The notes beneath the pieces are model-generated. The model ran no database searches and was not told the origin of the DNA. It was given only the letters and a program-made list of their open reading frames with translations. 64,000 nt of DNA, taken from contig JAKSYS010000199.1 in the NCBI GenBank assembly GCA_022925895.1, forward strand, positions 26,335 to 90,334, given 5' to 3'. The position numbers and the translations under genes were made by a program. Position 1 is the first letter of the stretch, and each line of letters opens with the position of its first letter. Origin of the DNA: Fragilaria crotonensis. Taxonomy: Eukaryota; Bacillariophyta; Fragilariophyceae; Fragilariales; Fragilariaceae. This document shows, piece by piece, positions 1 to 57,323 of the stretch.

Positions 1-2
1 TA

Positions 3-2298
3 TCATCCGAATCGCAAATCCGACTCGATGGCAACACTTTCTTCTGGGATCGAGGATATGGTGGAGTGAATGGAGAAGTCAACCAGTGGAGTGTGTCGGT
101 TGGAGCTATGCTTTTGGGAACAACAAAGAGAATGCGATCGTTCCCTTTTACATACGACCAACATCCGGGCCCAGACCGGCGGCTTATTGCAGAGAAAGGT
201 GCATCAGCCCATTATTGGGCTACGAAGGCGATAAGAAATGGTTCAAGAGTTACACATCAATATGCACTGGCCAGTCGAAACGGCTTAGGCCGGGTGGTTC
301 TCATGCAAACGACTGATGACAGGTACGGACCGGGAAAGTTTACCCTTGTAACCCGACAACGAGGATGCGATGTCGCTCCAGAACCTACAGATGATGAAGT
401 AATTAGACTGTTTGAAGCAGACCATGTTGAGCAGCTGACAGATACGCAACGATCTCCAGAATGGTTCAACCAGCGTCAGTTTTGAATTACTGGAACCACT
501 GCTCTTGCACTATGGAAGCGCTATGCGCATCGGGCTCGTTACACCGCCAGTGTCACCAGTGGAGGGGAGCTGTCGCACAATATCCTGTCAAGCTGTAAAA
601 TACTTGGGTTGAAATGCTCGAATGAACTCATTCCAAATGAGGCTGTGGCTGATCGGATTTACAGTAGACATGAGTTAGTGGGGTTGTCGGTTGCACACCT
701 AAAAGATATTTGCCGAGCGAAATCTCTGCTGGTGACAGGGAGCAAAACAATTCTCATTGATAGAGTGCTTTCATGGGGAGGATCTGATCAGTCAAACGGG
801 GAATGCCCAATACTGGAACTTCTTCTGGAGAAGTGGTTTATGTCGCCCTTGCCTCATCGACCTCAATGCGTGAAGGTACCCTCAATGAGTCAAATGTATT
901 GTCAAGACTTCCCTGTTTCTTGATCAGGAAAGCGATTTCGTTGTGACACATATCAGGGAATATGGCTTGTTATGTGCAAAAGGTATGTTCTATGCAGCAT
1001 TCTCGCCCGATGCGATTGCAGTTGCGGAGAACGAAAACATATTTGGCGAGGACGAAGGTATTCCTTTCATAGTGGAGATCAAGAGCAAATGCACCCCCGC
1101 AACAGTAATGAAAGAGACCGCATTGGCCAGGACCTACGGCACGTGTCCAACGATTTATGTTGTTATGACGGATCCTCCTACGAACGACGACTTTAAACGA
1201 ATGATTCCTGAGCCCGAGTACAGGTGTCAATTGTTGCATGGCATTGCATGTGGCAATCTGCGACATGCTTTCTATGTGGTGGCATCATTGCACAAGATAA
1301 TTCGTGTTGTTCATGTGAATGTTGATGAGCAGGTGGTTGAGCAATATCGATGTGCATTGCAAGAGGTACATGATCGTGAGCTTTCCTGGGTACTTCATGG
1401 TCGTTTACCGTGTTTGGGAGGAATGAAGCTGAGGCATGCAGTTGACGAGTACACTGTTCAAAATACGTTGGAACTATGGAGAGCAATCTATAATCTTGTG
1501 AAGACCCGGGGCAGACCGTTGCCAGCAGGACGCATGTTGATTCCGACCATTGTAGCAATGTGGAATCGAAGCAAAGGTCCTGTTGATGTGTTCTCGCGGT
1601 ACATGAAGAACTGCCATGCTCGGCATGCACAGCTCTCACCATTGGCACACATATGGCTTCGTCTTCTGATGTCTCGAGTTTATAATGCATATCAGAGCTA
1701 CATTCTCAGTCGCTCTGTTGCATTCCTGCTAAGTGATGGGTGCAATTTGTATGCTGCATTCCAGGCACACCGAAAGCTGTATGGGTCTTTTTCAAAGTTC
1801 TGCAGTTCTCTTGCTAAAGACCTAACACTCGAGGTTTCAGGTGATGACAGCAGCGACAGTGAAGGAGGAGATGATGGTGGTATCAGCATCCAGCAGACGG
1901 GAGAAGGAAGTGTTCTGAACACAAGCGGAAGGTCTTTTACATACAACAAGCGCGAGCTGTACTTCACAAGTCGCGAGATGATTCAAAGACGATTGGACCA
2001 GTCATTGCCACATGTTCTATGCAAAGTGGAATCGAAACCAACAAGCTGTGTCTGGTGCTGCAGAAAGAGGCATGATCAACCAGATCCGAAGCACTGCAGG
2101 CATGGTCGTACGACGAAGTTCATGTGTCCTGTGTGCATGGTCAGCCTTTGTCGTGTCAAGCGTTTCAACGGCATGAGCTGCCATGAGTTATTTCATACAA
2201 GCAGATCATTGGTAGACTATTGCACAGCCGAGATGGATGCTGTGGTTCACGTCATCCGCATCGAAACCGACCACCACCTCCGAATCGAGGTTCAGTGA
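3..2298 (+). pseudogene. Decayed piggyBac-type transposase with internal YqaJ-like nuclease and SAP motif (5' end outside window)
   Basis: The reading frame is already open at the left edge. It begins in a piggyBac (DDE_Tnp_1_7) core, with WDRGYGG near base 50 followed by a LLGTTKR strand. From about 450 it changes to a YqaJ-like exonuclease pattern: SPEWFNQR, then ITGT after an in-frame TGA at 483-485, REGTLNE near 870, AFSPDAIAV near 1000 and the E-x-K pair in FIVEIKSK near 1070. A SAP motif (LVGLSVAHLKDICR) lies at about 680-770. From about 1440 the piggyBac fold resumes (MWNRSKGPVDVFSRY, then a YNAY strand). It ends in a Cys/His-rich domain (CVWCC ... CRHGR ... CPVC ... LC ... CHELFH) like the C-terminal piggyBac zinc domain. 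The frame changes twice more (about 830 and about 920), so the copy is dead. Family assignments are by eye. The order transposase-nuclease/SAP-transposase is what the sequence shows; its role is unknown. A short basic tail may continue in another frame to 2426. Confidence 0.7.
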
Positions 2299-3052
2299 AT
2301 CCAGATGATTCTTCTCAGGAAAACGAGGAGCCACCTCGCAGAGTTCGATCTCGGATTACTCCTGTGGTAACACGAAGACTTCGGAGATCGCTGAGACCAA
2401 GGAGAGCTCCAATACGGCGGTTTTAAGACTGAACATCATTGTGTCAATGTGATCACCGCGAGTCTCCTCGTGTTAATTTTTCAATAGTCGTATTTTTTTT
2501 TGTCGCATGCTAGCTTTTTTTCGTGCGAACTCCGAAAAAAAATTGATGAAGTTTGCAATGTTGTACCTTTGCGAGCATCATGATTAGGAAGTTATCCTCA
2601 CAGATGTAGGAAGAAGGTTAAAAGCATTACAGATCGCACTTTTCAGAATCAAATGGTTGTGGGTTGTTCCTCCGTTATTGGGTTTCAACATTTTGTCGTC
2701 TTTTTTGTCGCACGGAATTTTCGCACTGGGGTTAAAAGATCGTATCTCAACAACTATGCATACCGATCCAAAAACGCGCATCTTGATAACCTGTATTCTA
2801 CTTGAATGTGACTTCAAACGTGTACTGAGGCATAAGCAAGGCAAATGAAGAGATCAAAAGAAATCGGATTTATGAAAAGGAAACTGAATTCAGTGCATTT
2901 AGACTGAATTCAGTGGGGTTGAACAGAATAAATTTTCTCGTATTTACTGGTAGTAGTAGCAGACCTACCCTGTGGCAACATTTGAAATGTTCTCCGTGTT
3001 CCGTGTGATAGGAGCACGCCTTCAGTGTACTGTCGTACTGTACTCATTCACT
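2299..3052. other. Spacer after the piggyBac-like relic
   Basis: No credible gene. T-rich runs near 2480-2545 probably belong to the non-coding 3' part of the transposon. A short direct repeat of a 12-13 base word (gactgaattcagtg) occurs at about 2883-2896 and 2901-2915. Confidence 0.4.
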
Positions 3053-3198: not shown

Positions 3199-4197
3199 AT
3201 GACCTCTCCGGTCCTCTTGCGGTCGACACTTCAAAGGTTCTTCCGCCAGGAAGAACATAACTTATCGAAGTCACCCATCCTGCTCATATCGTCCCTTCCA
3301 GAGTCGTCCAAAGCAGGAGTTGTGGAGAAAACGATTGAGACTTCGATCGACGGGTTGAAATTTTATGGCCAACAACAGCTGGGCTTACCTGTGTTTACGA
3401 CGCAGATTCGTTCGGCGTTCTGTACCTCCATTGATATTGAGAATGTTCAGAAACTTAAGAAAAGAACGGGCGCGTCCATTATTATTGGTGCTGGCTCTGG
3501 AGCTGCCATGGATCTGGCAAAAGCCGCTGTTGAGACACGCCAAGGTGACGAAAAACTCTATCTCTTTCCGTCCACGAGTGCTGCTGTCTTGGCGTCGTTC
3601 ACTTCGATAAGTCTAGTTCTTGATACGAAGGAAGAAATTATTATCATGAAGGTTCGGCAAGGAGATAATGCAATGGTTGTAGTTGACGAGAAGGATCTAC
3701 CTGTTGTTGTACATCCGCACGCACTCGCCGCTTGTCAAGCTATCCTTTTGGATGCAGCACTTCGCGATGACAATATCGACCTTTCCAAGGCCATGACTTT
3801 GATGGAAACACTTCAATACACCGCTGCAAATCTATCGACTGGTCTTGGTGATCAAACTAGAAGTGTTCCGCTTTGCCTAGCGTCATCGCTAATCCCTCCG
3901 TTGTTTTCGTCAACTCACATATTCACGTTTTGGGCCAGTCTGGTGCCTGCTCTCATGATGAACCATGCACGAGCATTGGCCGCCGGTTGTGATAGTGTTA
4001 GTGGTGATACCCTACTCTCAACGTTGAAAGACGAGGATCCCGCAGTTTATCCTGCTCTTGCGGCACTCGCACTCGAAGCGCAATCCGTGGAAAGCATGTT
4101 GCAGCACATAAGGAACAACCAATTCACGACACGTGATGTTCATGATGTCAGCGACGAGGTATTGATTCAAGTGTTGTCGACCAGTTTAAATCGATAG
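3199..4197 (+). CDS. Iron-containing alcohol dehydrogenase-like protein
   Basis: 332 residues from the ATG at 3199. The frame is open further upstream, but that part is translated microsatellite, so I start at MTSPVLLRST. The nucleotide-binding signature IIIGAGSGAAMDLAKAA (residues about 95-111) matches the GGGSxxDxAKA loop of group III (iron-type) alcohol dehydrogenases and maleylacetate reductases. The C-terminal helical half contains NHARALAA and an Ala-rich helix. The family's TTAGTGSE strand is not conserved (STSAAVLASF instead), and I cannot identify the usual Asp/His metal ligands, so catalytic activity is uncertain. The protein is shorter than the usual 380 or so residues. A rearranged partial copy lies at 16.4-17.0 kb. 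The substrate is unknown. Confidence 0.65.
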   Translation: MTSPVLLRSTLQRFFRQEEHNLSKSPILLISSLPESSKAGVVEKTIETSIDGLKFYGQQQLGLPVFTTQIRSAFCTSIDIENVQKLKKRTGASIIIGAGSGAAMDLAKAAVETRQGDEKLYLFPSTSAAVLASFTSISLVLDTKEEIIIMKVRQGDNAMVVVDEKDLPVVVHPHALAACQAILLDAALRDDNIDLSKAMTLMETLQYTAANLSTGLGDQTRSVPLCLASSLIPPLFSSTHIFTFWASLVPALMMNHARALAAGCDSVSGDTLLSTLKDEDPAVYPALAALALEAQSVESMLQHIRNNQFTTRDVHDVSDEVLIQVLSTSLNR

Positions 4198-8383: not shown

Positions 8384-8389
8384 TACAAG

Positions 8390-8955
8390 TAACACTAGTA
8401 CGGTACAATGGGGACTGTTTGGTGTACAAATTTTGATCTTCAAATAGCCTCAAATGGACGAGTAACACTAGTACGGGACAAAGGGGACTATTTGGTGTAC
8501 AAATTTTGATCTTCAAATAGGCTCAAATGGACAAGTAACAGTATGACAGTACGAAGACAACTATTTGGTGTACAAATTTTGATCTTCAAATAGGCACAAA
8601 TGGACAAGTAACAGTATGACAGTACAAAGACGACTATTTGGTGTACAAATTTGATCTTCAAATAGGCTTGAATGGACAAGTAACAGTATGACAGTACAAA
8701 GACGACTATTTGGTGAACAAATTTTGATCTTCAAATAGGCTCGAATGGACAAGTAACAGTATGACAGTACAAAGACGACTATTTGGTGTACAAATTTTGA
8801 TCTTCAAATAGGCACGAATGGACAAGTAACAGTATGACTATTTGGTGTACTTTGATCTTCAAATAGACTCCATACGACAAGTTACACTAGTACGGTACGA
8901 AGAGGACTATTTGGTGTACAAATTTTGATCTTCAAATAGACTCCATACGCCAATT
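8390..8955 (+). repeat. 73-bp minisatellite array, left arm
   Basis: About eight units, period 73 bp, each with ctatttggtgtacaaatttt followed by gatcttcaaatag and a gacaagtaacagtatgacag segment. One unit near 8830 is shortened. The same unit recurs in the opposite orientation at 9480-10375, so the two arrays are arms of a large imperfect palindrome inside the MULE. Confidence 0.92.
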
Positions 8956-9310: not shown

Positions 9311-9479
9311 CGGTTTTACAGAATGATACCGGCAACACTGGAAAATGAGGTTTTCAAGGTGTATATCAATCAGGGAAAAGTCAACAAGGGGTTGCCGTGG
9401 CACTGAGGCCGGAAGAAATGTTACTTTTCAATCCATCGTATCAGCACTGTTTGACATCCCGCACATTGCATTAGTCATC

Positions 9480-10375
9480 TTTGTACTGTCATACTGTTAC
9501 TTGTCCATTCGTGCCTATTTGAAGATCGAAATTTGTACACCAAATAGTCGTCTTCGTACTGTCATACTGTTACTTGTCCATTCAAGCCTATTTGAAGATC
9601 GAAATTTGTACACCAAATAGTTGTCTTCGCACTGTCATACTGTTACTCGTCCATTTGTGCCTATTTGAAGATCAAAATTCGTACACCAAATAGTCGTCTT
9701 CGTACTGTCATACTGTTACTTGTCCATTTGTGCCTATTTGAAGATCAAAATTCGTACACCAAATAGTCGTCTTTGTACTGTCATACTGTTACTTGTCCAT
9801 TTGTGCCTATTTGAAGATCAAAATTCGTACACCAAATAGTCGTCTTTGTACTGTCATACTGTTACTTGTCCATTTGTGCCTATTTGAAGATCAAAATTCG
9901 TTCACCAAATAGTCGTCTTTGTACTGTCATACTGTTACTTGTCCATTTGTGCCTATTTGAAGATCAAAATTTGTACACCAAATAGTCGTCTTTGTACTGT
10001 CATACTGTTACTCGTCCATTTGTGCCTATTTGAAGATCAAAATTCGTACACCAAATAGTCGTCTTTGTACTGTCATACTGTTACTTGTCCATTTGTGCCT
10101 ATTTGAAGATCAAAATTCGTACACCAAATAGTCGTCTTCGTACTGTCATACTGTTACTTGTCCATACGTGCCTATTTGAAGATCAAAATTCGTTCACCAA
10201 ATAGTCGTCTTCGTACTGTCATACTGTTACTTGTCCATTCGTGCCTATTTGAAGATCAAAATTTGTACACCAAATAGTCGTCTTCGTACTGTCATACTGT
10301 TACTTGTCCATTTGAGCCTATTTGAAGATCAAAATTCGTACACCAAATAGTCCTCATCGTACTGTACTAGTGTTA
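9480..10375 (-). repeat. 73-bp minisatellite array, right arm
   Basis: About twelve units of the left-arm repeat in reverse orientation, containing gcctatttgaagatcaaaat and gtacaccaaatagtcgtctt. Units are more uniform here than on the left, suggesting later homogenisation. The array ends about 85 bp from the 3' end of the transposase reading frame. Confidence 0.92.
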
Positions 10376-10459
10376 CTTTTTGCGCAACTACCGTAAGTAT
10401 GTCCAACGTGTAGCGCCGGAAATACAATGTTTACCATACATCTATGACGTGACATCACT

Positions 10460-44533: not shown

Positions 44534-45780
44534 TCAGGAGAAGGGTGGGCCCCCGGGTGGGAGGCCGGGGGGTGAGGGGGGGTTGTGGAGGCGGAAGTCG
44601 CCACCGTGAAGCATAGCGGCGGCGGCGCCCGCCATCACAGGTTGCGCCTGCACGTGCAGGTAGCGGTAGACTTCATCCGAACGCCAGCGCCCGATAAGGC
44701 GGATGCGGTCGGAGCCGATGCCGCCGCACAGCAAGGCCATGGCGCCGCCGGCACGGGTGCAGCGGGCGGAGAAGTCGCGTGCATCAAGATCGGCCTGGGG
44801 CACGAAAGGGGCAGCGCGGCGCAGTAAGGCAGTGATGTCGGCTGCAAGAACGAACTGCCATTCGGCGCCGGGGTGGCGGAAGGCATTGATAGGCGTCGTG
44901 GGGACTGCGCCGGCACGGCGCAATTGGAGAAGTCGACCGACCAACGCGTGGACCGGGCAAAGTGTCGGGTGTCCACTACGGCCGTGGCCGATGGTCTCGC
45001 CACGAACGCCGTTTTTCTGGGACGTGAATGTGAGGGACACAAATGTAGTCGCCAAGAGGTCGGGAATCGGGCAGGTAAGGGGGGCTAGGCGGCGGTGGCC
45101 GATCATAACGCCGACATCCTGGAGTCGGAAGAGGTCGTCTTCCGTTGTTCGGGGGTGGCCGCTGTACTCGCCGGGGCGGAGAAGGAAGTAGTAGGCGAGG
45201 AGAAGGCAGTCGCCAGCGGCCGCGAGGCCGGAGTCCGGGGGAGCGGCAGACGAGAGGGTATGAGCTTGGCGCACGAGGGACAGCGGCACCGGTTTGACCC
45301 GAGTAGGCGGGGGATCGGCTCTTTTCCACGCCTGAAGCAGCGCGCGGAGGCGGAAGTCGAGGTCGCCAAAGGAATTCAAGCGAGGGTCGTTGGCCCCCAC
45401 CCGGGTGAACGCCTGCGCCACTTGGCGGACGGCGTCCTCCACCGTTCGAGATCGGACGGGCCGGTCGCTGGGGGAAATGCGGCCGGTGCGGTATTGCTGC
45501 GCGAAGAGGAGCAGGACGGGCACGAGGTCTCCAGGGACATCAAGGAGGTCGGTGCGCAGGCCATGATTGGTGCAGAAGCGTTCCCAAACGCCGGCGGTAG
45601 TGGCTGTGGCGGCGTTGCGATGCGCAGACTGGTGGGCGTCGAGCGTCGTCGTGACAGCGCTCCAATCACGGCGGAGAGCGTCTCGGGTGCCAGGGTTATC
45701 AACCTCCAGGAGGTACTCTGCGGATAGGTGGAGGTGAAATAAGTGAGGAGGGCAGTGTTCGACAAGTCCCAGCGGCGACT
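44534..45780 (-). CDS. Retroelement tyrosine recombinase (YR integrase)
   Basis: The supported part of a longer open frame whose first portion (to 46171) overlaps the RNase H region in another frame and is not protein-like. The visible start of the domain is near TRDALRRDWSAVTTTL. An N-terminal SAM-like helical region (GVWERFCTNHGL ...) leads to the catalytic core with LLRPGEYSG (first Arg), SARCTRAGGAMAL (box with the second catalytic region) and LIGRWRSDEVYRYLH, with the nucleophile Tyr expected at VYRY. The tail is Pro/Gly-rich. This enzyme integrates the circular DNA copy without target-site duplication. The ATG used is unclear; expression may rely on overlap with the RT frame. Confidence 0.8.
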
Positions 45781-47670
45781 GGCGTCGTCGGCCATCACGT
45801 TGGATTTTCCAGCAATGAAGTCGTGTTGGGGGACGTAACGAAAGTGACGTTGATGAAGGGCGGTGAGACGAAGGAGGTATGCGCGCGCCGTACTGGATGT
45901 GGCCGACCCCTTGGTGGCCCATGCCAGGGCCGGCCGATTGTCGCCGGCGAGCCACACGGGTCGCTCGGCCAGGTGCTGCCCGGGGCAGACTTGGGTGAGC
46001 ACCTGTTTGTGCGCAAGTGTGCCGGCGAGCTCCAAGTCGGAGATGGAGAGAGTGCCGCGACGGTTGGAACTGGTGATGAGGGCGCGTTGGAGGGCAAGCG
46101 GGAATGCTGCTCGCCACACGACGGGGGGGGCGTCGGGAAAGAACCAGACGCCCCCCATCCCCTTCTGACATGCGTCACATGCGCCATGCGCCACAGGAGT
46201 CCCGACGGGGATGAGCTCCCGAAATCGAGTGGGGCGAACTCGAAGCGTGTCGGCTATCGCTCGAAAGTCGGCAAGACTGGCATGGGCGAGGCGACTGAGC
46301 CTGACCCGATGGCGATCACCGGCGCGAAGCGAGTCCTGGAGTGCGGAGAATAGGCCACGGGCGCCAGGCAAGGCGGCGGTCATGGATCGCAGCTCCCCTA
46401 GCAGCCTGTGCCATTCCCCAACTGGCGCGCGGCGACGGGTTGGCGGAAAGGCGTCCAATAGTGCATACAGGCGGTCAAGGCGGTGAGGAGGGAGGTTGAG
46501 AGTCCCTGCCACTGTGTCAAAGTCCCAGCCGAGGATAGTTTTGCGAGTGGCCCAATAGGCGTCGCCCTGACGGAGCTTCTTGGTTGAGACAGGCTCCTTG
46601 CGACTCGAGCGATCGGTAGCTGCAAGCGGGCGCAGTACTCGGTCGATTGCGTGGAGCGCGGTGCGCAACACGCGCTGTTGGTGGCGCTTCGTCTGCGCTG
46701 CCAGAAGGAAGTCGTCCACGTAGACATCCCCGTAGGCGAGCGGAGAGGCGTTTGTGCCGGGTGACCCTTTGAATGCAGGGACGGGCCCCGGCGTTGCGTC
46801 TCCCGTCGTGGATGGCATGGCCGTGCCGACTGGTGTTGCGGGTTGCGTGGCGGCAAGGGACTCCAGCGGATGTGGTGGAGGGTGATCCCACCCTCTTCGC
46901 AGCGCCGCATTCAAGAGGTCACACGCCGTCTCTGTGACCGCTGTGAAATATGGCGGGCTCTCCACCCAACCCATCGGCAGGGCGAGGGGGAGCGCTACCA
47001 AGGGTTCTCGTTCAGTTGTTGGGAGGATAACTCCCAGCCGAGGGATGTCGCGAGGGTACAGACCGATACGATAAAACCCATCTGCAATGTCGATTTTTGC
47101 AAGGTACACGGGCCCATAGGACGGTGCCGCGTGCACTACCTTGGTAAGGAACCGCTGGAGGGCCTTGCCAAACTGCATGGCCTCCGGGGGAGCGAGCCTT
47201 GCCGTGTCTTCATTCACACCAGAGTAGGTGTAATCTACGATGAGGCGCGAGCGCCGATCCCGCTGGGGTACGACGCCGAGTGGCGAGAGGCGCAAGCCGG
47301 GAAGCGACAGTGCGACGGATAACGGCAGAACGGTCCAGAAGCCTTGCGCGCAAAATTCCAACATCTCTGTGCACACAAACTCCACCGCATCCTTTGCGGA
47401 TTTGTGCGAGCCCCGCTCCGCGGCCTGGAGGACCTGCGTCCGAGTCCAGGCCTCCGTGTGGAGGGGTACCCGTGCGCCACGGTGGCGGAGGTACTCCAGC
47501 AAGCGGGCTGCCTTGTGGGGTATTGTGCCTACCGACTCCACGATGTCAGGGGTGCCCCGTTCCGCTGCAACAAACACATCCCAATGCCCAAATCGTGCTA
47601 ATTTAACGGCTGCATCTCTTGCGTACTTACGTAATGTTGTCTCCGCTCTCGACGGGCGTGCGTCGTCCAC
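45700..47670 (-). CDS. Retroelement reverse transcriptase-RNase H
   Basis: Supported part of an open frame that nominally runs to 45376, overlapping the recombinase. The frame begins without an ATG (GTG at 47670), suggesting translation as part of a larger product or by reinitiation after gag. RT motifs: RLIVDYTYSGVN, YLAKIDIADGFYRIGL (catalytic Asp), LALPMGWVESPPYFT, and the YVDD box in GDVYVDDFLLAA. RNase H motifs follow: GACDACQKGMGG (Asp), SISDLELAGTL (Glu), LAGDNRPALAWATKG (Asp) and KSNVMADDASR (Asp). The frame is intact across all these, so this copy was active recently. Confidence 0.85.
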
Positions 47671-50181: not shown

Positions 50182-51365
50182 ACAACTTTCCGGGGCGTCA
50201 GTCTGGCAACAAGATGGCTTACCAGCAGATCATCAGGAAGTTACCACGGGCAGTTTACACAACGAGGATCAACCTCCTAATGACCACCAATCACTGGCGC
50301 GTCGTTCTGCATGGCCGACCCCAGCCGAAGGAATTCGTCAATCAACAAGTCGCAACCGAAAAGAAAGTTCCAAAGCCGGTCTCACCAACACCATAACGAC
50401 GCTTTCCAGAGCACAGGAGGCGGCACTTCCTTAGGTTCTGACGATGATCGCAGCACCGCATCCACCCGTTCGCTTACTAATGGTTCGAGATTTTCTACAC
50501 CGGATACTAGATTCCAAGATCTAGAGATCGATGCAACAAAAGTTACTGGAGTTAGAAATGTCAGGAAGAAATCTTCTGATCGTCTCCTTTCTATGGAGCA
50601 TCAATTTAGTCGCATCGAAGACCTGGACAGGAAAGTAGCTGCTGTTAACGATAAATTGGACCGCGCGGCTGTACAGATGGATGAATCACATACGACGCAA
50701 CAACACATCCTGAACGATATGGAAGGGATTAAGACCCAAACGGCAGCGCAATTCGAGGAAATAAATCAACGTTTATTGTCTAACATGGAGAGTCAACACA
50801 AGATGTCGACTACAATGTTAGATTTACGAGAACATTTTGAGAAGATGTCAAATTTTTTGGAGAATTTGGCTACAAAAATGGAGGTCGATCGGAAGAATGC
50901 TGTTGATACAACGATGCAGGTGAACTATGCTCGTGCAGCTTCCTCGGCTACTCGCGATTTAAAGTTCCACGACTCACAATCAACGAGCAGTGCTAGTACA
51001 GGTTCATCCAAGTCCAAAGCTTCAGTGCAATCCAATGCATCATCATCAGTGTATTGTTCCCAGAGAAGAAAAAACAGCGATCCCAACGTAAAGAGGATAT
51101 CAAACTACAGCACACGTGTGATGACGCTGAGAATTTCTTCAAAGAGTCGAACGATCGTCATAGCCCGAGCTATATGGATGTTTGTACAAACTTAGACGAC
51201 GCCTTCAGCCATCAGCAGGATTCTCAACGCTCCTCAGAAGTCGAGCAAACGCTTCCTACGTCAAGTGTTAGGCCGACGAGTCTATCGAATACTCTACCAT
51301 CTACGGCTCCTCTAGATCCACAATACAAAATTTCTACGGATCTAGATGGGGCGGAGTGTTTATGA
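50125..51365 (+). CDS. Non-LTR element coiled-coil segment, split over three frames
   Basis: Protein-like sequence passes through different frames. 50125-50400 reads IHIQAEIKSQVSFLEQL and onwards. 50311-51050 contains a coiled coil (FSRIEDLDRKVAAVNDKLDR, then QQHILNDMEGIKTQ and TMLDLREHFEKMSNFLENL). 51054-51365 reads EDIKLQHTCDDAENFFKESN to the end. This is probably the C-terminal, oligomerising part of ORF1 or a second small protein. The breaks may be mutations, sequence errors or translational shifts. Confidence 0.55.
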
Positions 51366-53002
51366 GTATTCCAGTTGGAAGCCTAGTGTCCTTCGACGAG
51401 TCCAACACACTTGCAACTGCAGTCGATTCTATGTCCGCATTGGCTCAGGCACAAGCACAATGGAAAAACTTGTTTAGTAGCAGTTCTACATATTCCAACG
51501 ACAAGCAGTACACTATTCCGGATCGTGAACCCAGCTTACTAACGCGGAAGAATCAAAGGGAGAACGTGCCATGGGGAGACATCCTAGCGGAAAAACCGGT
51601 CAATACAACACGTGTATACGTTCAAAACGTGAATGGGCTTTCATTCGATAGCCGTGGAGGGCAACTTAACGACGTTTGCAAAGTTATACAAGAAACTCAG
51701 GCGGACATTTTCTGCGGTCAAGAACATAATCTCGACGTCACACAAATGAATGTTAGGAGTGTATTATATGACACTATTCGGCAGTACTGGGAACGGACTA
51801 AATTCATCGCAGGTACGACGCCAATCCCTTTTTCGACGTCGTATAAACCAGGAGGCACATTCTTATTGACAACTGGATGCCTTGCTGGTCGCATCGTTAA
51901 CCAAGTGCAAGATAGATGGGGAAGATGGGTCATTCAAGAATTCTCAGGCAGGTCCGGAATCAAAGTTGTTATTGTGTCAGCATATCAACCAGTCGATAAG
52001 AGAGGACATGTAGGGACGCTAACAGTGTCAAGTCAGCATCGAAGTCTCCTCTTGCAATCTCAAGATCCTGTTACCAATCCCCGATCTGCTTTCCGGCGAG
52101 ATCTATTGCTAGCATTGCGGTCTTATCAACGAGCGGGTTCCGATATCTTGCTGGTCGGTGATTTTAACGAAGCATTCGGCACAGATGCTGATGGTCTGAG
52201 CTTTATCGCAGGCGAATTACAGCTGATTAATTTGAGCTCCTCTCGTCATTCATCCCATGTTCCAGCGACATACTCCAGAGGATCGAAGTGTCTAGATTAT
52301 GCCCTAGGGAGCCCTCGTCTTGGAGCAGCATTAATTGCGATGGGATACGAAGCATTTAACGTCAGGTTATCATCCGATCACCGAGGATTTTTCATCGATT
52401 TTGATACGGATAAATTGTTCGGAAGTCCAACTCCCAATCTCGCGTCTCCTAACAGACGAATGCTCAAAGCAAACAATATACATCAGGTTACCGCATATAT
52501 CGACACTATGTATGAATTTTTGTTGGCCCATAATGCATTTCAAAGAGGTAGGAGATTAACGTATCCCGGCAATCGGCACCAATTTGCAGAGCGATTGGAC
52601 CGAGATGTTTTAGCGGCCGGTTTGGCGGCAGAAGCAAAAATTCCTCAGTTCGGCGTGCCGGCATGGTCTCTGGAATTGTCACGAGCAAGGCAACGAGTGC
52701 AATATTTGAGGAAATGTTTATCAGCTTTTCGAACCCATCTGGATCACGCAGGGATTATCCAGGAGTATATTATGATGTTTCCGGAAGACGAAGTCCCAAC
52801 ACATCAACGCCACTGTTCTCGGTTACTTCGGTCGGCAAATAGCAATATCCGTCTTCTGGTTAAACAAAGTTTTAATACTCGCGGAGCAGAACGTCAGCAG
52901 CGAATCAAGAATTGGAAACATCAACACGCGCTTCCGACAGAGAAACTGCCCAACGATTGCGTCGATTGCAAAAGCCGAAGATATCAAAGCCGTGACAAAT
53001 AA
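51356..53002 (+). CDS. Non-LTR element apurinic-type endonuclease
   Basis: 548 codons. Endonuclease/exonuclease/phosphatase motifs in order: YVQNVNGLSF, IFCGQEHNLD (catalytic Glu), IVSAYQPVD, LLVGDFNEAF (Asp, Asn), SKCLDYALGS and LSSDHRGFFIDF (Asp-His). After the domain there is an Arg-rich helical stretch. It ends 11 bases inside the start of the RT frame. This nuclease nicks the target for target-primed reverse transcription. Confidence 0.85.
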   Translation: MFMSIPVGSLVSFDESNTLATAVDSMSALAQAQAQWKNLFSSSSTYSNDKQYTIPDREPSLLTRKNQRENVPWGDILAEKPVNTTRVYVQNVNGLSFDSRGGQLNDVCKVIQETQADIFCGQEHNLDVTQMNVRSVLYDTIRQYWERTKFIAGTTPIPFSTSYKPGGTFLLTTGCLAGRIVNQVQDRWGRWVIQEFSGRSGIKVVIVSAYQPVDKRGHVGTLTVSSQHRSLLLQSQDPVTNPRSAFRRDLLLALRSYQRAGSDILLVGDFNEAFGTDADGLSFIAGELQLINLSSSRHSSHVPATYSRGSKCLDYALGSPRLGAALIAMGYEAFNVRLSSDHRGFFIDFDTDKLFGSPTPNLASPNRRMLKANNIHQVTAYIDTMYEFLLAHNAFQRGRRLTYPGNRHQFAERLDRDVLAAGLAAEAKIPQFGVPAWSLELSRARQRVQYLRKCLSAFRTHLDHAGIIQEYIMMFPEDEVPTHQRHCSRLLRSANSNIRLLVKQSFNTRGAERQQRIKNWKHQHALPTEKLPNDCVDCKSRRYQSRDK

Positions 53003-56000
53003 GCTGCGGAACGTCAGAGGGAAAAATCATAGTAGTGGGGTAGTTCGGTTAGAAATTCCGTTACATTCTGGAGATGATCCGAAAGCTTGTACTCAATGGC
53101 AACAAATCGAAGTTCCCACGGAGATTGTTCGTCTTCTTCAAGAACGGAACAGACTTCATTTCGGACAAGCGCACGGGACTCCATTCACAGTCTCCCCATT
53201 GGCCGATTTGCTGGGGTATACTGGTTTCGGGGAGGCCCAGCAACAACTTTTAAGGGGCACGTTCGACACTACAGGTTACGAAGAGAACGTTCAATTGCTT
53301 CTCAATCACCTTCGGTATGCTCACAAGGCGGTTGAAGAAAACATCCGACCAACTATCGATGACGGCGATTTCTGCGCCAAACTGCGTTTATGGTCTGAAT
53401 CTACTACAACATCTCCTTCAGGCATGCATCTTGGACATTATAAAACGCTTATCGCACGGCATTCCTATTCGTCGGATGTATCAGATGAAGAGTTGGAACC
53501 AGAGTTTATAGAGAGACGTGACGAACTGAATTTTCGACAACAGGCAATACGCCAATTGCGGCTAGATCTCCTGAATTATGCGTTGGAGAGAGGTTATTCA
53601 TTTCAGCGATGGCAAAAAGTGATCAACACCATCCTTTTCAAGGATTCAGATAACGTGCGCTTGCATCGCACCAGGGTTATCCATATCTATGAGGCGGATT
53701 TCAATTTGTTCCTCGGAATTAAGTGGAGAGCAGCTATGCACCAGGCGGAAGATTTACGAATTCTGAATGAAGGACAATTTGGGTCTCGACCGTATCGAAA
53801 TGCAACGGAGCCCGTGTTTATAGAAGAGCTACAACTTGAAATCTCAAGGGCTACTCGCAAACCTTTGGTCCTCACGAATTACGATGCAACTGCATGTTAC
53901 GATCGGATCATTCCTAATCTAGGGATGACGGTTAGTCAAAAATATGGAGTTCCTGCACCAGTCACTGTGAGTAACGCTTCGACCTTGGAAAAGACAGAAT
54001 TTCATGTGAGGACCGATCTTGGAATATCCCCGACCAGCTATCATCACGAAGAGTCTTTTCCAATCTACGGTACAGGCCAGGGAAGTGCTAATTCCCCCGC
54101 AATCTGGTGTTTTCTTTCCAGTACGTTGTTCGATTGCTACGATACTCAAGCATCGGAAGCGATGTATTGGGATACATGTGGCAGTGTAACCGCGCGATTG
54201 GGTATGATTGGTTTCGTAGACGATTGTAACGGACAAACTAATGCATTTCGAAGTGACGGATCTAGCGAGACCGTTAAACAAGTGGTCTCGCAAGCTCAAG
54301 ATAACGCTCAATGTTGGACCGATTTATTGCACGCAAGTGGTGGCGCTCTCGAATTATCCAAGTGTTCGAGTCATATTCTCCAATGGCAATTTTCCATAAC
54401 TGGTGCTCCTGTCTTAGTACCATCTCATGTCTCAAACGACGTCTGTATCGAAGTTCGAGATCATTTATCGAACTCGGCGCAACATTTACAGTTGCTCTCA
54501 GCATACACAGCGCACAAGACACTGGGACATTATAAGGATCCGGCTGGAACCCAGCGAGAACAATATCGACAATTGAAAAAGAAAAGCGATTCCATCACAG
54601 CTTTCCTATGGGTTACACCGCTCAATCGATCAGAGGCATGGACGTATTATTTTGCATACTACCTCCCAGCCGTGTGTTACCCTCTCGCAAGTTCTTCCCT
54701 CACGCCTCAATGTCTTGATCGAGTGCAAAGGAAGGCCATGTCCATCATCGTTCCCAGATGCGGATTTAATCGTCATACCAAGCGAGCCATTCTTTATGGC
54801 CCTTTAGCTCTGGGAGGAGCGAGCTTTCGGTCATTGGTGGTCCAACAAGGCATCTCCCAGGCGATGATGTTTATTCGCCAGTGGAGGAATAATTCCATCG
54901 CAGGAAAGTTACTTCGGATCGCTGTTTCGTGGTTTCAGGCGCAAGTCGGCGTATCATTCCCTATCCTGGAGCACGTTCAAGAACCCCTACCGCATTTAGA
55001 ATCGAAATGGATTCGGTCCCTCCGGGATTTTCTGGCGTCCATTAACGCTAAACTCCGCCTAGATACTCCGTATTTGCCGGAGCTCCAGCGTCTACACGAC
55101 GTTTGCATCATGGATGTTATTCAATCTTCAGGGAAGTTTACTCCTACCGAGATCTGCAAGTTGAATTATTGCCGACTGTATTTGAATGTTGTTACAATAT
55201 CGGACATAACCTGTGTGAGTGGCAAGCGGTTGGATTCTAACAAGCTATCGGGAAACCACTCTCGGCTCAGTAGTTATACTCATGGCACCTCAATTTATCA
55301 AGAACGACCGTCGGAGTCCACGTGGGCACTTTGGAAGAAAGCTAACAGGCTATGGAGTACAAGCACTGACGACCTTATCCAACCCTTGGGTGATTGGGTT
55401 CTACCACTTCATAAACTCCGGCAGCGGCACCCCGCATATTGGTGGTCAGGTCGATTGTGGGTCTTGATACAAGATCAGTATATCAAATGCAATTTGGTTT
55501 CGGACCGAACCTTCCAAGAAACTGCAGTTTCGTGCGATTGGGCCGAGCTCCCAACTCTCGCAGTTCCGATGTTCGCAGTGCAATCTACGCCTGGGAGCTG
55601 GACAATTACCCAACAGAGTTATGTTTTAGAAGTGAATGATCCGCCGATGTCAGGAACGTTTACACAATATGTTGCGGCACTCCCGGAATGGGAGTCAGAA
55701 TTACTGCGTCACACTGAGATGTTTGAGGACCCCTTCACAGTAGCAATGGCTCTTGAACACGGCGTTCGTGCAGTAAGTGATGGTTCAGATTGGAACCAAG
55801 AGCAAGGAGCTTTTGGTTGGACGATGAGTACCGATAGAGGCGAACGATGCGCACAAGGCATGGGCCCTGCAAGAAGTTCTGCTCCGAACGCCTATCGTTC
55901 TGAAAGTTATGGATTATTGTCCCTCTTGTGTTTCCTTCGCAGGTTGGCTGAGTTTACAGGTAAACACGATCAATGGTATGGAGTTGTGGCCACGGACAGT

Positions 56001-57323
56001 CAGAGTCTGATCGACACTGTACTTCAGCGGAATATCAAACAAGAGCACTCCGGCGTTGATAGTACTTTTATCGGCGGCGCACAGCGTCAGATCAAGACCC
56101 ATCCGCTCGACCCAACTCTCCCAGATTGGGACGTTATTCGTGGAATTCAGGTTCTTCTTCAACAAATGCCAGAGTTAAAATTGAAGCATGTTAAAGGCCA
56201 CCAAGATCGTGATATCCCATATCGGCATCTATCCTTGTTGGCCCAGTTGAACGTTGATGCTGACGCGCAAGCATCACAATATCAAAGAGATTTGGGTTCG
56301 TACCGGCCAGACGTGCTCCTTACCGAATGGGCAGGGGTTCACTTGGAGTTTCCATCGGGCACAGTCACAGCCCATTATGAAGCAGCGTTACGATATCAGG
56401 CAACTGCGCCCGCGTTACAGGCTCATATGCAGGAGCGACACTCCTGGTCACCACAAACCATGGCAGCGATTAACTGGAAAGCTCATGGCTCAGCGCTCCG
56501 ACGCCATCTGAAGAAACGCACATTTCTGGTAAAACTGGTTCACGGTATTCTTCCGACGAATCTTCACCTCCATCGATCAGATCAACGACGCAATCGTTGC
56601 CCAAGTTGTCAAAGCGTAGCCGAAAGCTGGCAGCATATCCCGTGTTGTCCATCCGACGCTCACACGTCGTGGCGAAATTCGTTCCTCAAGACAATGGAAG
56701 TGACATGCACCAGGCTCGGGACGATGCCACATTTGCAGGTACTCCTGCTTCGAGCAATTCGAGAGTGGTGCTTGCATCCACACAGTGAAACTGTGTTTAC
56801 CGTTCAATTCCGCGGAGGAGATTCTCCAGCACTTCGGCGTGTCATTTTCCAACAAAACGCAATAGGCTGGGAGCACATTTTGTTGGGACGATTTAGTAGC
56901 GAATGGAGTCGTCTTCAAGATGAATATTATGCTCGACGGGCACAGTCCACGGAAACGAAGCGGCAAACAGGTCAGAGATGGCAAATTGCAATCATTAGTT
57001 CCATATGGAAACAATGGTTCCTTATCTGGGCGATTCGGAATAAAGCCCTACACGGAGCGGACTCACGACTGCAGGCACAAGCAGAGCGAAGAGAAATTGA
57101 GCGACAGCTGTCCGACGTGTACGATCTTCGACCTCAAATGGAGCCTAGCGTTCGACAATTGTTGCACCGAGATCTCACCGAGCATTTATCTAAAACAGTG
57201 GCATACAACAAAAACTGGTTATCGGTTTATGGTCCGATAGTTAAACAGAGTATCAAACGTGCGAAGGCAAAGGCCATACAAGGAGTTAAAGCGATCACAC
57301 ATTATTTCGAGAAGCTCAAGTAA
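52992..57323 (+). CDS. Non-LTR element reverse transcriptase-RNase H
   Basis: 1443 codons, intact. The first codon is GTG and the frame is open further upstream (TIASIAKAEDIKAV), so it most likely continues from the endonuclease by a frameshift near 52,940-52,980. RT motifs: LVLTNYDATACYDRI (Asp), YGTGQGSANSPAIW, and the active box GFVDDCNGQTN. RNase H motifs: AVSDGSDWNQEQGAFGW (Asp), AYRSESYGLL (Glu), GVVATDSQSL (Asp) and LAQLNVDADAQA (Asp), with KLKHVKGHQD preceding the last. A basic, helical region (from about residue 1220) ends the protein. A Cys/His cluster (CPSCQSVAESWQHIPCC) lies just after RNase H. Confidence 0.88.
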   Translation: MTNKLRNVRGKNHSSGVVRLEIPLHSGDDPKACTQWQQIEVPTEIVRLLQERNRLHFGQAHGTPFTVSPLADLLGYTGFGEAQQQLLRGTFDTTGYEENVQLLLNHLRYAHKAVEENIRPTIDDGDFCAKLRLWSESTTTSPSGMHLGHYKTLIARHSYSSDVSDEELEPEFIERRDELNFRQQAIRQLRLDLLNYALERGYSFQRWQKVINTILFKDSDNVRLHRTRVIHIYEADFNLFLGIKWRAAMHQAEDLRILNEGQFGSRPYRNATEPVFIEELQLEISRATRKPLVLTNYDATACYDRIIPNLGMTVSQKYGVPAPVTVSNASTLEKTEFHVRTDLGISPTSYHHEESFPIYGTGQGSANSPAIWCFLSSTLFDCYDTQASEAMYWDTCGSVTARLGMIGFVDDCNGQTNAFRSDGSSETVKQVVSQAQDNAQCWTDLLHASGGALELSKCSSHILQWQFSITGAPVLVPSHVSNDVCIEVRDHLSNSAQHLQLLSAYTAHKTLGHYKDPAGTQREQYRQLKKKSDSITAFLWVTPLNRSEAWTYYFAYYLPAVCYPLASSSLTPQCLDRVQRKAMSIIVPRCGFNRHTKRAILYGPLALGGASFRSLVVQQGISQAMMFIRQWRNNSIAGKLLRIAVSWFQAQVGVSFPILEHVQEPLPHLESKWIRSLRDFLASINAKLRLDTPYLPELQRLHDVCIMDVIQSSGKFTPTEICKLNYCRLYLNVVTISDITCVSGKRLDSNKLSGNHSRLSSYTHGTSIYQERPSESTWALWKKANRLWSTSTDDLIQPLGDWVLPLHKLRQRHPAYWWSGRLWVLIQDQYIKCNLVSDRTFQETAVSCDWAELPTLAVPMFAVQSTPGSWTITQQSYVLEVNDPPMSGTFTQYVAALPEWESELLRHTEMFEDPFTVAMALEHGVRAVSDGSDWNQEQGAFGWTMSTDRGERCAQGMGPARSSAPNAYRSESYGLLSLLCFLRRLAEFTGKHDQWYGVVATDSQSLIDTVLQRNIKQEHSGVDSTFIGGAQRQIKTHPLDPTLPDWDVIRGIQVLLQQMPELKLKHVKGHQDRDIPYRHLSLLAQLNVDADAQASQYQRDLGSYRPDVLLTEWAGVHLEFPSGTVTAHYEAALRYQATAPALQAHMQERHSWSPQTMAAINWKAHGSALRRHLKKRTFLVKLVHGILPTNLHLHRSDQRRNRCPSCQSVAESWQHIPCCPSDAHTSWRNSFLKTMEVTCTRLGTMPHLQVLLLRAIREWCLHPHSETVFTVQFRGGDSPALRRVIFQQNAIGWEHILLGRFSSEWSRLQDEYYARRAQSTETKRQTGQRWQIAIISSIWKQWFLIWAIRNKALHGADSRLQAQAERREIERQLSDVYDLRPQMEPSVRQLLHRDLTEHLSKTVAYNKNWLSVYGPIVKQSIKRAKAKAIQGVKAITHYFEKLK

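Follow-up and report, generated by a model that had tools for sequence, protein, structure and literature searches.

Does a single diatom polypeptide hold both a transposase and an exonuclease, and if so, what would the second enzyme do for the first? The question is raised by the beginning of a 64,000-nucleotide stretch of Fragilaria crotonensis (GenBank assembly GCA_022925895.1), bases 26335 to 90334 of contig JAKSYS010000199.1 (C114) in a genome of 62.1 Mb and 881 contigs. The whole stretch is called the window here, and positions are counted from its first letter. A sequence-only reading had described positions 3 to 2298 as a piggyBac-type transposase interrupted by a YqaJ-like nuclease with a SAP motif, dead in this copy but perhaps intact in relatives. 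Follow-up analysis places this region in a transposon whose family architecture and mobility, the latter seen in copies and target duplications, are well supported. Papers are cited below by PubMed Central identifier, each for the portion of its text that was available.

A nuclease inside a piggyBac-type core

A structure search with the model of a relative, P0010, returned piggyBac (6x67), piggyBat (9c0f), and Tn5 as best matches, and a piggyBac-type fold with a helical domain and an RNase H core is predicted from this model. The catalytic Asp residues of piggyBac are D268, D346, and D447. Across 65 sequences (63 proteins plus L020 and L021, with sequences not covering a site dropped from its count), the corresponding motif columns kept the first Asp in 39 of 39, the second in 43 of 43, and the third in 31 of 33 cases. 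Three Cys columns of the C-terminal domain were invariant (25/25, 24/24, and 24/24), which points to a Cys-rich domain of the piggyBac type. At an expectation value (E) of 5 or better, DDE_Tnp_1_7 was found in 8 of 19 aligned proteins (best E, 1.4e-6) and zf-Tnp_2 in 4 (best E, 7.1e-4). Using hhalign, the N half aligned past the first Asp with six own-genome frames of ordinary piggyBacs (probability 91; E, 1e-6), and the nuclease gave no useful match to such frames.

After these transposases, the next structural matches were lambda exonuclease (1avq and 3sm4) and LHK-Exo (3syy), and the inserted domain, of about 350 residues plus SAP, is accordingly modeled with a lambda-exonuclease fold. The Mimivirus protein R354 (5yet and 5yeu) matched the nuclease in both sequence and fold; a profile built from seven nuclease segments hit it (E, 9e-4) over the stretch with the SPD and E.K motifs, and also hit DEK (E, 1.3e-4) and SIZ1 in their SAP domains. 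Among four proteins compared with PHROGs, three matched the RecE-like exonuclease phrog_434 (E, 0.0012, 0.004, and 0.022). SAP was recognized in 17 of the 19 aligned proteins (E of 5 or better; best, 1.2e-9), and it was the sole significant Pfam match among pieces of the window copy, where the open piece from 3 to 482 had none.

The catalytic motif set of the YqaJ/lambda exonuclease family consists of W..R, E, D, E.K, and Q. All of its members appear to be present: in the 65 sequences, the columns held W in 42/42, R in 40/42, E583 in 37/41, D624 in 42/42, E642 in 44/46, K644 in 44/46, and Q689 in 40/42. The motifs persist at 35 to 39% identity to P0010, with catalytic residues invariant in seven of seven divergent nucleases. 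The domain order first proposed, with the nuclease and its SAP domain followed by the rest of the piggyBac fold and the Cys/His region, therefore stands on the model of a relative, its structural matches, and long open frames.

The window copy is broken, but relatives are intact

All listed motifs (FFWDRGYGG, EWFNQR, REGTLNE, SPDAIAV, VEIKSK, KGPVD, and the Cys/His cluster) are present in the sequence (Table 1). Frame 3 is open from 3 to an in-frame TGA at 483-485 and again from 486 to 923, REGTLNE (869-889) falls in frame 2, frame 1 is open from 889 to 2298, and the basic tail continues in frame 3 to about 2423. Because of the TGA and the frame changes near 845-869, 913-925, and about 2246-2259, the first two of which, with the TGA, also break the nuclease coding region, this copy is decayed and cannot make a full-length protein; the earlier verdict of a dead copy was right, having counted the stop codon and two frame changes and missed the one at about 2246-2259. 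The N-terminal domain and the first catalytic Asp are encoded by an open stretch of C114 that precedes the window, where a DDE_Tnp_1_7 match also lies.

Intact relatives do exist. Two distant copies in the same genome hold the arrangement in one frame, of 1,041 codons in C52 and 999 codons in C509. In both, an upstream open stretch aligns with the N terminus of the relatives across a gap resembling a short intron, and in C509 this stretch is split over two frames. Protein searches returned 17 proteins with the C52 frame, 45 with the alignment, and 21 (of 224 to 623 amino acids) with the nuclease alone, together 63. Relatives of 1,066 to 1,130 amino acids include P0006, P0007, P0009, P0010, P0012, and P0018, and the transposase-nuclease-transposase order is spanned by 19 sequences (17 database proteins plus the C52 and C509 frames). 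Two entries, P0011 and P0028, are from F. crotonensis itself; the gene model of P0011 is missing a portion of the nuclease, and its best pieces match the genome of the window at 98 to 99%. Scans of IMG/VR with two family proteins gave one pattern match each, none of which was confirmed.

Constraint and history of the fusion

The same 19 sequences span the second Asp, the nuclease, and the third Asp, and in a set gathered with nuclease-bearing queries, 0 of 65 held these two Asp residues without the nuclease. In three pairwise comparisons of own-genome frames, the nuclease had nonsynonymous divergence (dN) of 0.28 to 0.31 against synonymous divergence (dS) of 2.3 to 3.1 or saturated, and the transposase parts had dN of 0.20 to 0.34. 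Purifying selection on the nuclease is well supported by these sequence comparisons. Trees of the transposase part and the nuclease part had 10 of 16 splits in common, a result compatible with a single old fusion that has largely been passed on whole.

Element ends, target sites, and copies

Boundaries were drawn by aligning the window and its upstream neighbor (L069) to other loci of the same genome, and the ends are sharp. The whole transposon occupies C114:25088-29065 (3,978 bp), with its left end 1,247 bases before the window begins and its right end at 2731, so positions 3 to 2298 of the original description are one part of it and stop short of the coding tail. On the left, matches at C261, C39, C23, C483, C658, C152, and C616 begin at window offsets -1248 to -1245, the C616 match being truncated by the start of its contig; on the right, matches in other copies stop at 2734-2736, flank bases included. 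The element has inverted ends, CCCCAGT...ACTGGGG. Just inside the left end, C114:25096-25124 forms a palindrome whose two 14-bp arms match perfectly (TTTTTTGTCGCATG-G-CATGCGACAAAAAA); it resembles the palindromic repeat near the left end of piggyBac that is the target of its Cys-rich domain (PMC7351741).

Flanks were inspected in 14 copies and were readable on both sides in 9. Flank pairs were TTAA/TTAA in four of the nine (C23, C483, C614, and C295) and matched one-base variants in three (C658, TTAG; C152, TTAT; C52, CTAA). The inverted repeats and TTAA sites that had been suggested as a check were both found, and the family makes the 4-bp TTAA target duplication of piggyBac with relaxed specificity. 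Outside this count were C616, C537, C87, and C509 (end cut or not found) and C261, which has TTAA at each of its two distant ends. The C52 copy has 9-bp inverted ends, CCCCAGACA, beside its CTAA duplication, and an end-pattern search found no ends in the C509 copy.

The family is dispersed, the coding piece from 889 to 2298 alone matching 70 pieces on 31 contigs. End searches of the genome yielded 36 rows for the right end and 68 for the left, and 28 of the left-end rows were self-matches of the palindrome. Pairing used 33 of the 36 right-end rows, 34 of the other 40 left-end rows, and none of the palindrome rows; weak or partial rows were omitted, and pair counts are lower bounds. At least 7 copies are full length, at 3,972 to 3,993 bp (C114 itself, C39, C23, C483, C152, C658, and C616), and at least 20 short end pairs measure 1,168 to 2,366 bp, 14 of them 1,369 to 1,402 bp. 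A C715 pairing of 2,769 bp was excluded from the full-length count, and C715 is also among the 20 short pairs. Over long BLAST pieces, close copies are 98.2 to 99.6% identical to the window copy, the right part of C261 standing lower at 96.2%, and over the last 233 bp identity is only 91 to 95%, with other copies 5 to 12 bases longer.

Two further observations concern these copies. Some 20 short derivatives, including 14 with a length close to 1.38 kb, keep both ends yet are shorter than the gene. At C261:36998-49722, the left and right ends of one split copy stand 12.7 kb apart, as if by a large insertion or rearrangement.

Table 1. Positions of transposon features in the window
Feature	Position	Strand	Basis or detail
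3' part (69%) of the transposon; right end CACTGGGG finishing at 2731	1..2731	+	Near-identical copies share end points
Predicted RNase H core of piggyBac type, downstream of the first Asp; FFWDRGYGG (39-65) holds the second catalytic Asp (codon 48-50)	3..482	+	P0010 counterpart aligned to piggyBac 6x67
Predicted beta-rich insertion domain	~100-420	+	Position by analogy to the P0010 model
Predicted lambda-exonuclease/YqaJ-like nuclease, before the third catalytic Asp; outer borders approximate	435..1506	+	Fold, profile, motifs
Nuclease motifs	W..R (EWFNQR) in 435-482; GT.NE 869-889; SPD (SPDAIAV) 1003-1023; VEIKSK 1072-1089; Q..H 1216-1248	+	Sequence
SAP domain nested in the nuclease, between the W..R and GT.NE motifs	672..773	+	PF02037, E 4.6e-7
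Predicted rest of the piggyBac fold; end approximate	1507..1842	+	Third catalytic Asp in RSKGPVDVFSR 1567-1599; helices YNAYQSYILSR 1681-1713
Putative C-terminal Cys/His cluster at the position of the piggyBac Cys-rich domain/zf-Tnp_2	2047..2196	+	Motifs; zf-Tnp_2 (PF13842) in relatives
Basic C-terminal tail, in another frame after the change at ~2246-2259	2250..2423	+	Comparison with relatives
Right-end region with TTTTTTGTCGCA subterminal repeats	2500..2731	+	Common to full-length and short copies; 36 own-genome matches including itself
TTAA at the right flank (target site)	2732..2735	.	Left flank TAAA; the two flanks of the window copy differ at one base

What the nuclease may do

PiggyBac uses hairpin-mediated cutting, integrates at TTAA, and excises seamlessly (PMC7351741). 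By analogy with this chemistry, the three-Asp (DDD) site would nick at the element ends and join them to TTAA-like sites. The fused nuclease would act on the DNA ends made by the transposase and resect 5' strands at the donor break, in keeping with lambda-type enzymes, which digest 5' strands from double-stranded ends. Resection would then replace seamless re-ligation by recombination from the sister or homologue, with the donor copy restored; the donor break would be the most useful substrate for the element because resection favors recombination with a sister that carries it. SAP domains bind AT-rich or chromatin DNA, and the SAP domain here may add such binding.

With some reservation, we place first among the explanations a piggyBac-type family in which a lambda-exonuclease/YqaJ nuclease with SAP sits between the insertion domain and the helix of the third Asp and resects the ends that the transposase makes. 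A fuller version is possible though doubtful: an undescribed piggyBac-type clade in which one polypeptide with DDD and lambda-type exonuclease sites would couple excision to immediate 5' resection, the donor being copied back, and TTAA specificity being relaxed because seamless re-ligation would be dispensable.

Several results weigh against resection by a YqaJ-type enzyme in a piggyBac-type family. Of the profile searches proposed at the outset, those for SAP and DDE_Tnp_1_7 succeeded, and that for Pfam YqaJ (PF09588) did not reach significance (1 of 19 aligned proteins; E, 0.16) and had 0 matches in a search of the own genome. An absent YqaJ HMM match, which the sequence-only reading had named as refuting its claim, is thus literally the case for Pfam; the nuclease identity is instead carried by the lambda exonuclease and LHK-Exo structural matches and by R354 and phrog_434 in sequence. 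L020, the fourth protein compared with PHROGs, had no PHROGs or NCBIfam exonuclease match, and the NCBIfam hits over the four proteins amounted to TIGR03033 (E, 0.032, below cut-off) and one unrelated name, both on one protein. The C half had no useful hhalign match to ordinary piggyBacs and is assigned by fold and motif. The two trees conflict with support (0.90 to 0.95) over P0009 and P0010/P0012, and two of the nine readable copies have unmatched flanks (C114, TAAA/TTAA; C39, CTAA/ATAA). The relaxed targets might suit an element that has given up seamless re-ligation, but piggyBac itself tolerates non-TTAA flanks at excision (PMC7351741), so they support this weakly.

The main competing explanation, itself unlikely, is that the nuclease behaves like TnsA and, during excision, trims or cuts the 5' strand that is not transferred at the ends of the transposon, replacing or aiding the hairpin step. 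The closest folds speak for something else, since lambda exonuclease and LHK-Exo digest DNA from its ends instead of cutting at specific internal sites, and with the three-Asp core kept, hairpin chemistry should remain available. In its support, TnsA is a nuclease of restriction-like fold, and R354, the match in both sequence and fold, is titled Cas4-like. The nuclease also probably sits in the insertion-domain region, which lines the DNA channel in piggyBac (PMC7351741).

Less probable still is an accessory role, in which the nuclease would have a substrate other than the ends of the element, as in the clearing of competing or foreign DNA. Such a role would suit R354, which by its entry title belongs to a Mimivirus virophage-resistance element, and YqaJ-family enzymes more broadly, which occur in phage recombination; ISL2EU elements likewise carry YqaJ, as a separate open reading frame (ORF) whose function their authors call unknown (PMC4482050). 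Against this, the position of the nuclease inside the catalytic core, with no member of the set holding the second and third Asp alone, argues for coupling to transposition. A domain that no longer cuts and serves as a structural or DNA-binding spacer is very unlikely given purifying selection and catalytic residues retained in 37/41 to 42/42 covering sequences and 7/7 divergent nucleases, even though other DDE transposases have insertion domains at the same topological place, where the one in piggyBac forms a lining of the DNA channel (PMC7351741). Nothing in favor of a nested separate element, an outcome that the sequence-only reading had named as fatal to its claim, or of an assembly accident was found, and both can be dismissed on the identical in-frame place of the nuclease in relatives from many contigs, the own-genome open frames of 999 and 1,041 codons, and the count of 0 in 65 in the set gathered with nuclease-bearing queries.

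Relation to known systems

Compared with piggyBac (Trichoplusia ni 6x67) and piggyBat (9c0f), the window family has a nuclease and SAP in the catalytic core, duplications that also include TTAG, TTAT, and CTAA, and a protein of about 1,070 to 1,130 amino acids. Compared with the YqaJ/lambda exonucleases (1avq, 3sm4, and 3syy), its nuclease lies inside a transposase, is interrupted by SAP, and is too distant for the Pfam model; the solved chain of Mimivirus R354 (5yet and 5yeu), too, has no fused transposase. Tn7 pairs a DDE transposase with a restriction-fold nuclease, as here, but its TnsB and TnsA are separate and unrelated proteins. Inoue and colleagues reportedly described, in 2018, piggyBac-like elements fused to herpesviruses in teleosts (Teratorn type), a fusion at the level of the element with separate genes.

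Like the window family, ISL2EU (PHIS) is a eukaryotic DNA transposon that encodes a YqaJ nuclease as well as a DDE transposase (PMC4482050 and PMC9179366); unlike it, ISL2EU uses two separate ORFs and a PIF/Harbinger-like transposase with helix-turn-helix/THAP domains. KolobokP shares TTAA targets and the union of a DDD/E transposase and a nuclease in one element (PMC9587614), but its nuclease is a His-Me finger homing endonuclease, its transposase is of Kolobok type, its ends are 5'-RR, and the word "YqaJ" is absent from the available text of PMC9587614. Membership in both groups was considered and rejected: the ends here are 5'-CC (CCCCAGT and CCCCAGACA) against 5'-RR in Kolobok (PMC9587614), and for ISL2EU, piggyBac is the best fold match and the nuclease shares the open frame instead of forming a second ORF.

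The architecture had been thought undescribed, and no piggyBac-YqaJ or piggyBac-SAP fusion was found in the open-license literature, judged mainly by title and start of abstract among the matches listed. One paper that names both YqaJ and piggyBac lists YqaJ domains as viral elements and cites Inoue et al. 2018, and another filters both words from gene families, as far as their available text goes; a third, on probiotics, was set aside on its title.

Other features of the window

On the minus strand, positions 44534-47670 form a GC-rich block (~64%, far above its surroundings) with two overlapping long frames, one weakly resembling reverse transcriptase in Pfam (E, 0.0085, short of the cut-off) and the other tyrosine recombinase-like by eye, without a Pfam match; the block may be a DIRS-like retroelement. 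On the plus strand, frames in a row at 51356-57323 match the endonuclease profile Exo_endo_phos (E, 4.4e-12) and, at an E of 1e-5 that misses the curated cut-off, reverse transcriptase, and from sequence this looks like a long interspersed nuclear element (LINE)-type retrotransposon. Two 73-bp tandem-repeat arrays, at 8385-8838 and 9472-10378, lie in opposite orientation about 0.6 kb apart.

Implications

The influence of a transposon on repair of its own excision break is an open question. If the resection proposal is true, a piggyBac relative with a built-in resecting enzyme would allow the connection of excision with repair-pathway choice to be tested directly, within one protein. PiggyBac is in wide use as a genome-engineering tool, and its excision is scarless (PMC7351741). 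In F. crotonensis, 48 mobilome genes are upregulated at high pH (PMC9732472). The window family would offer a concrete context for the YqaJ genes that ISL2EU elements carry without explanation; by its example, the insertion-domain region of a DDE transposase seems able to accept a whole second enzyme.
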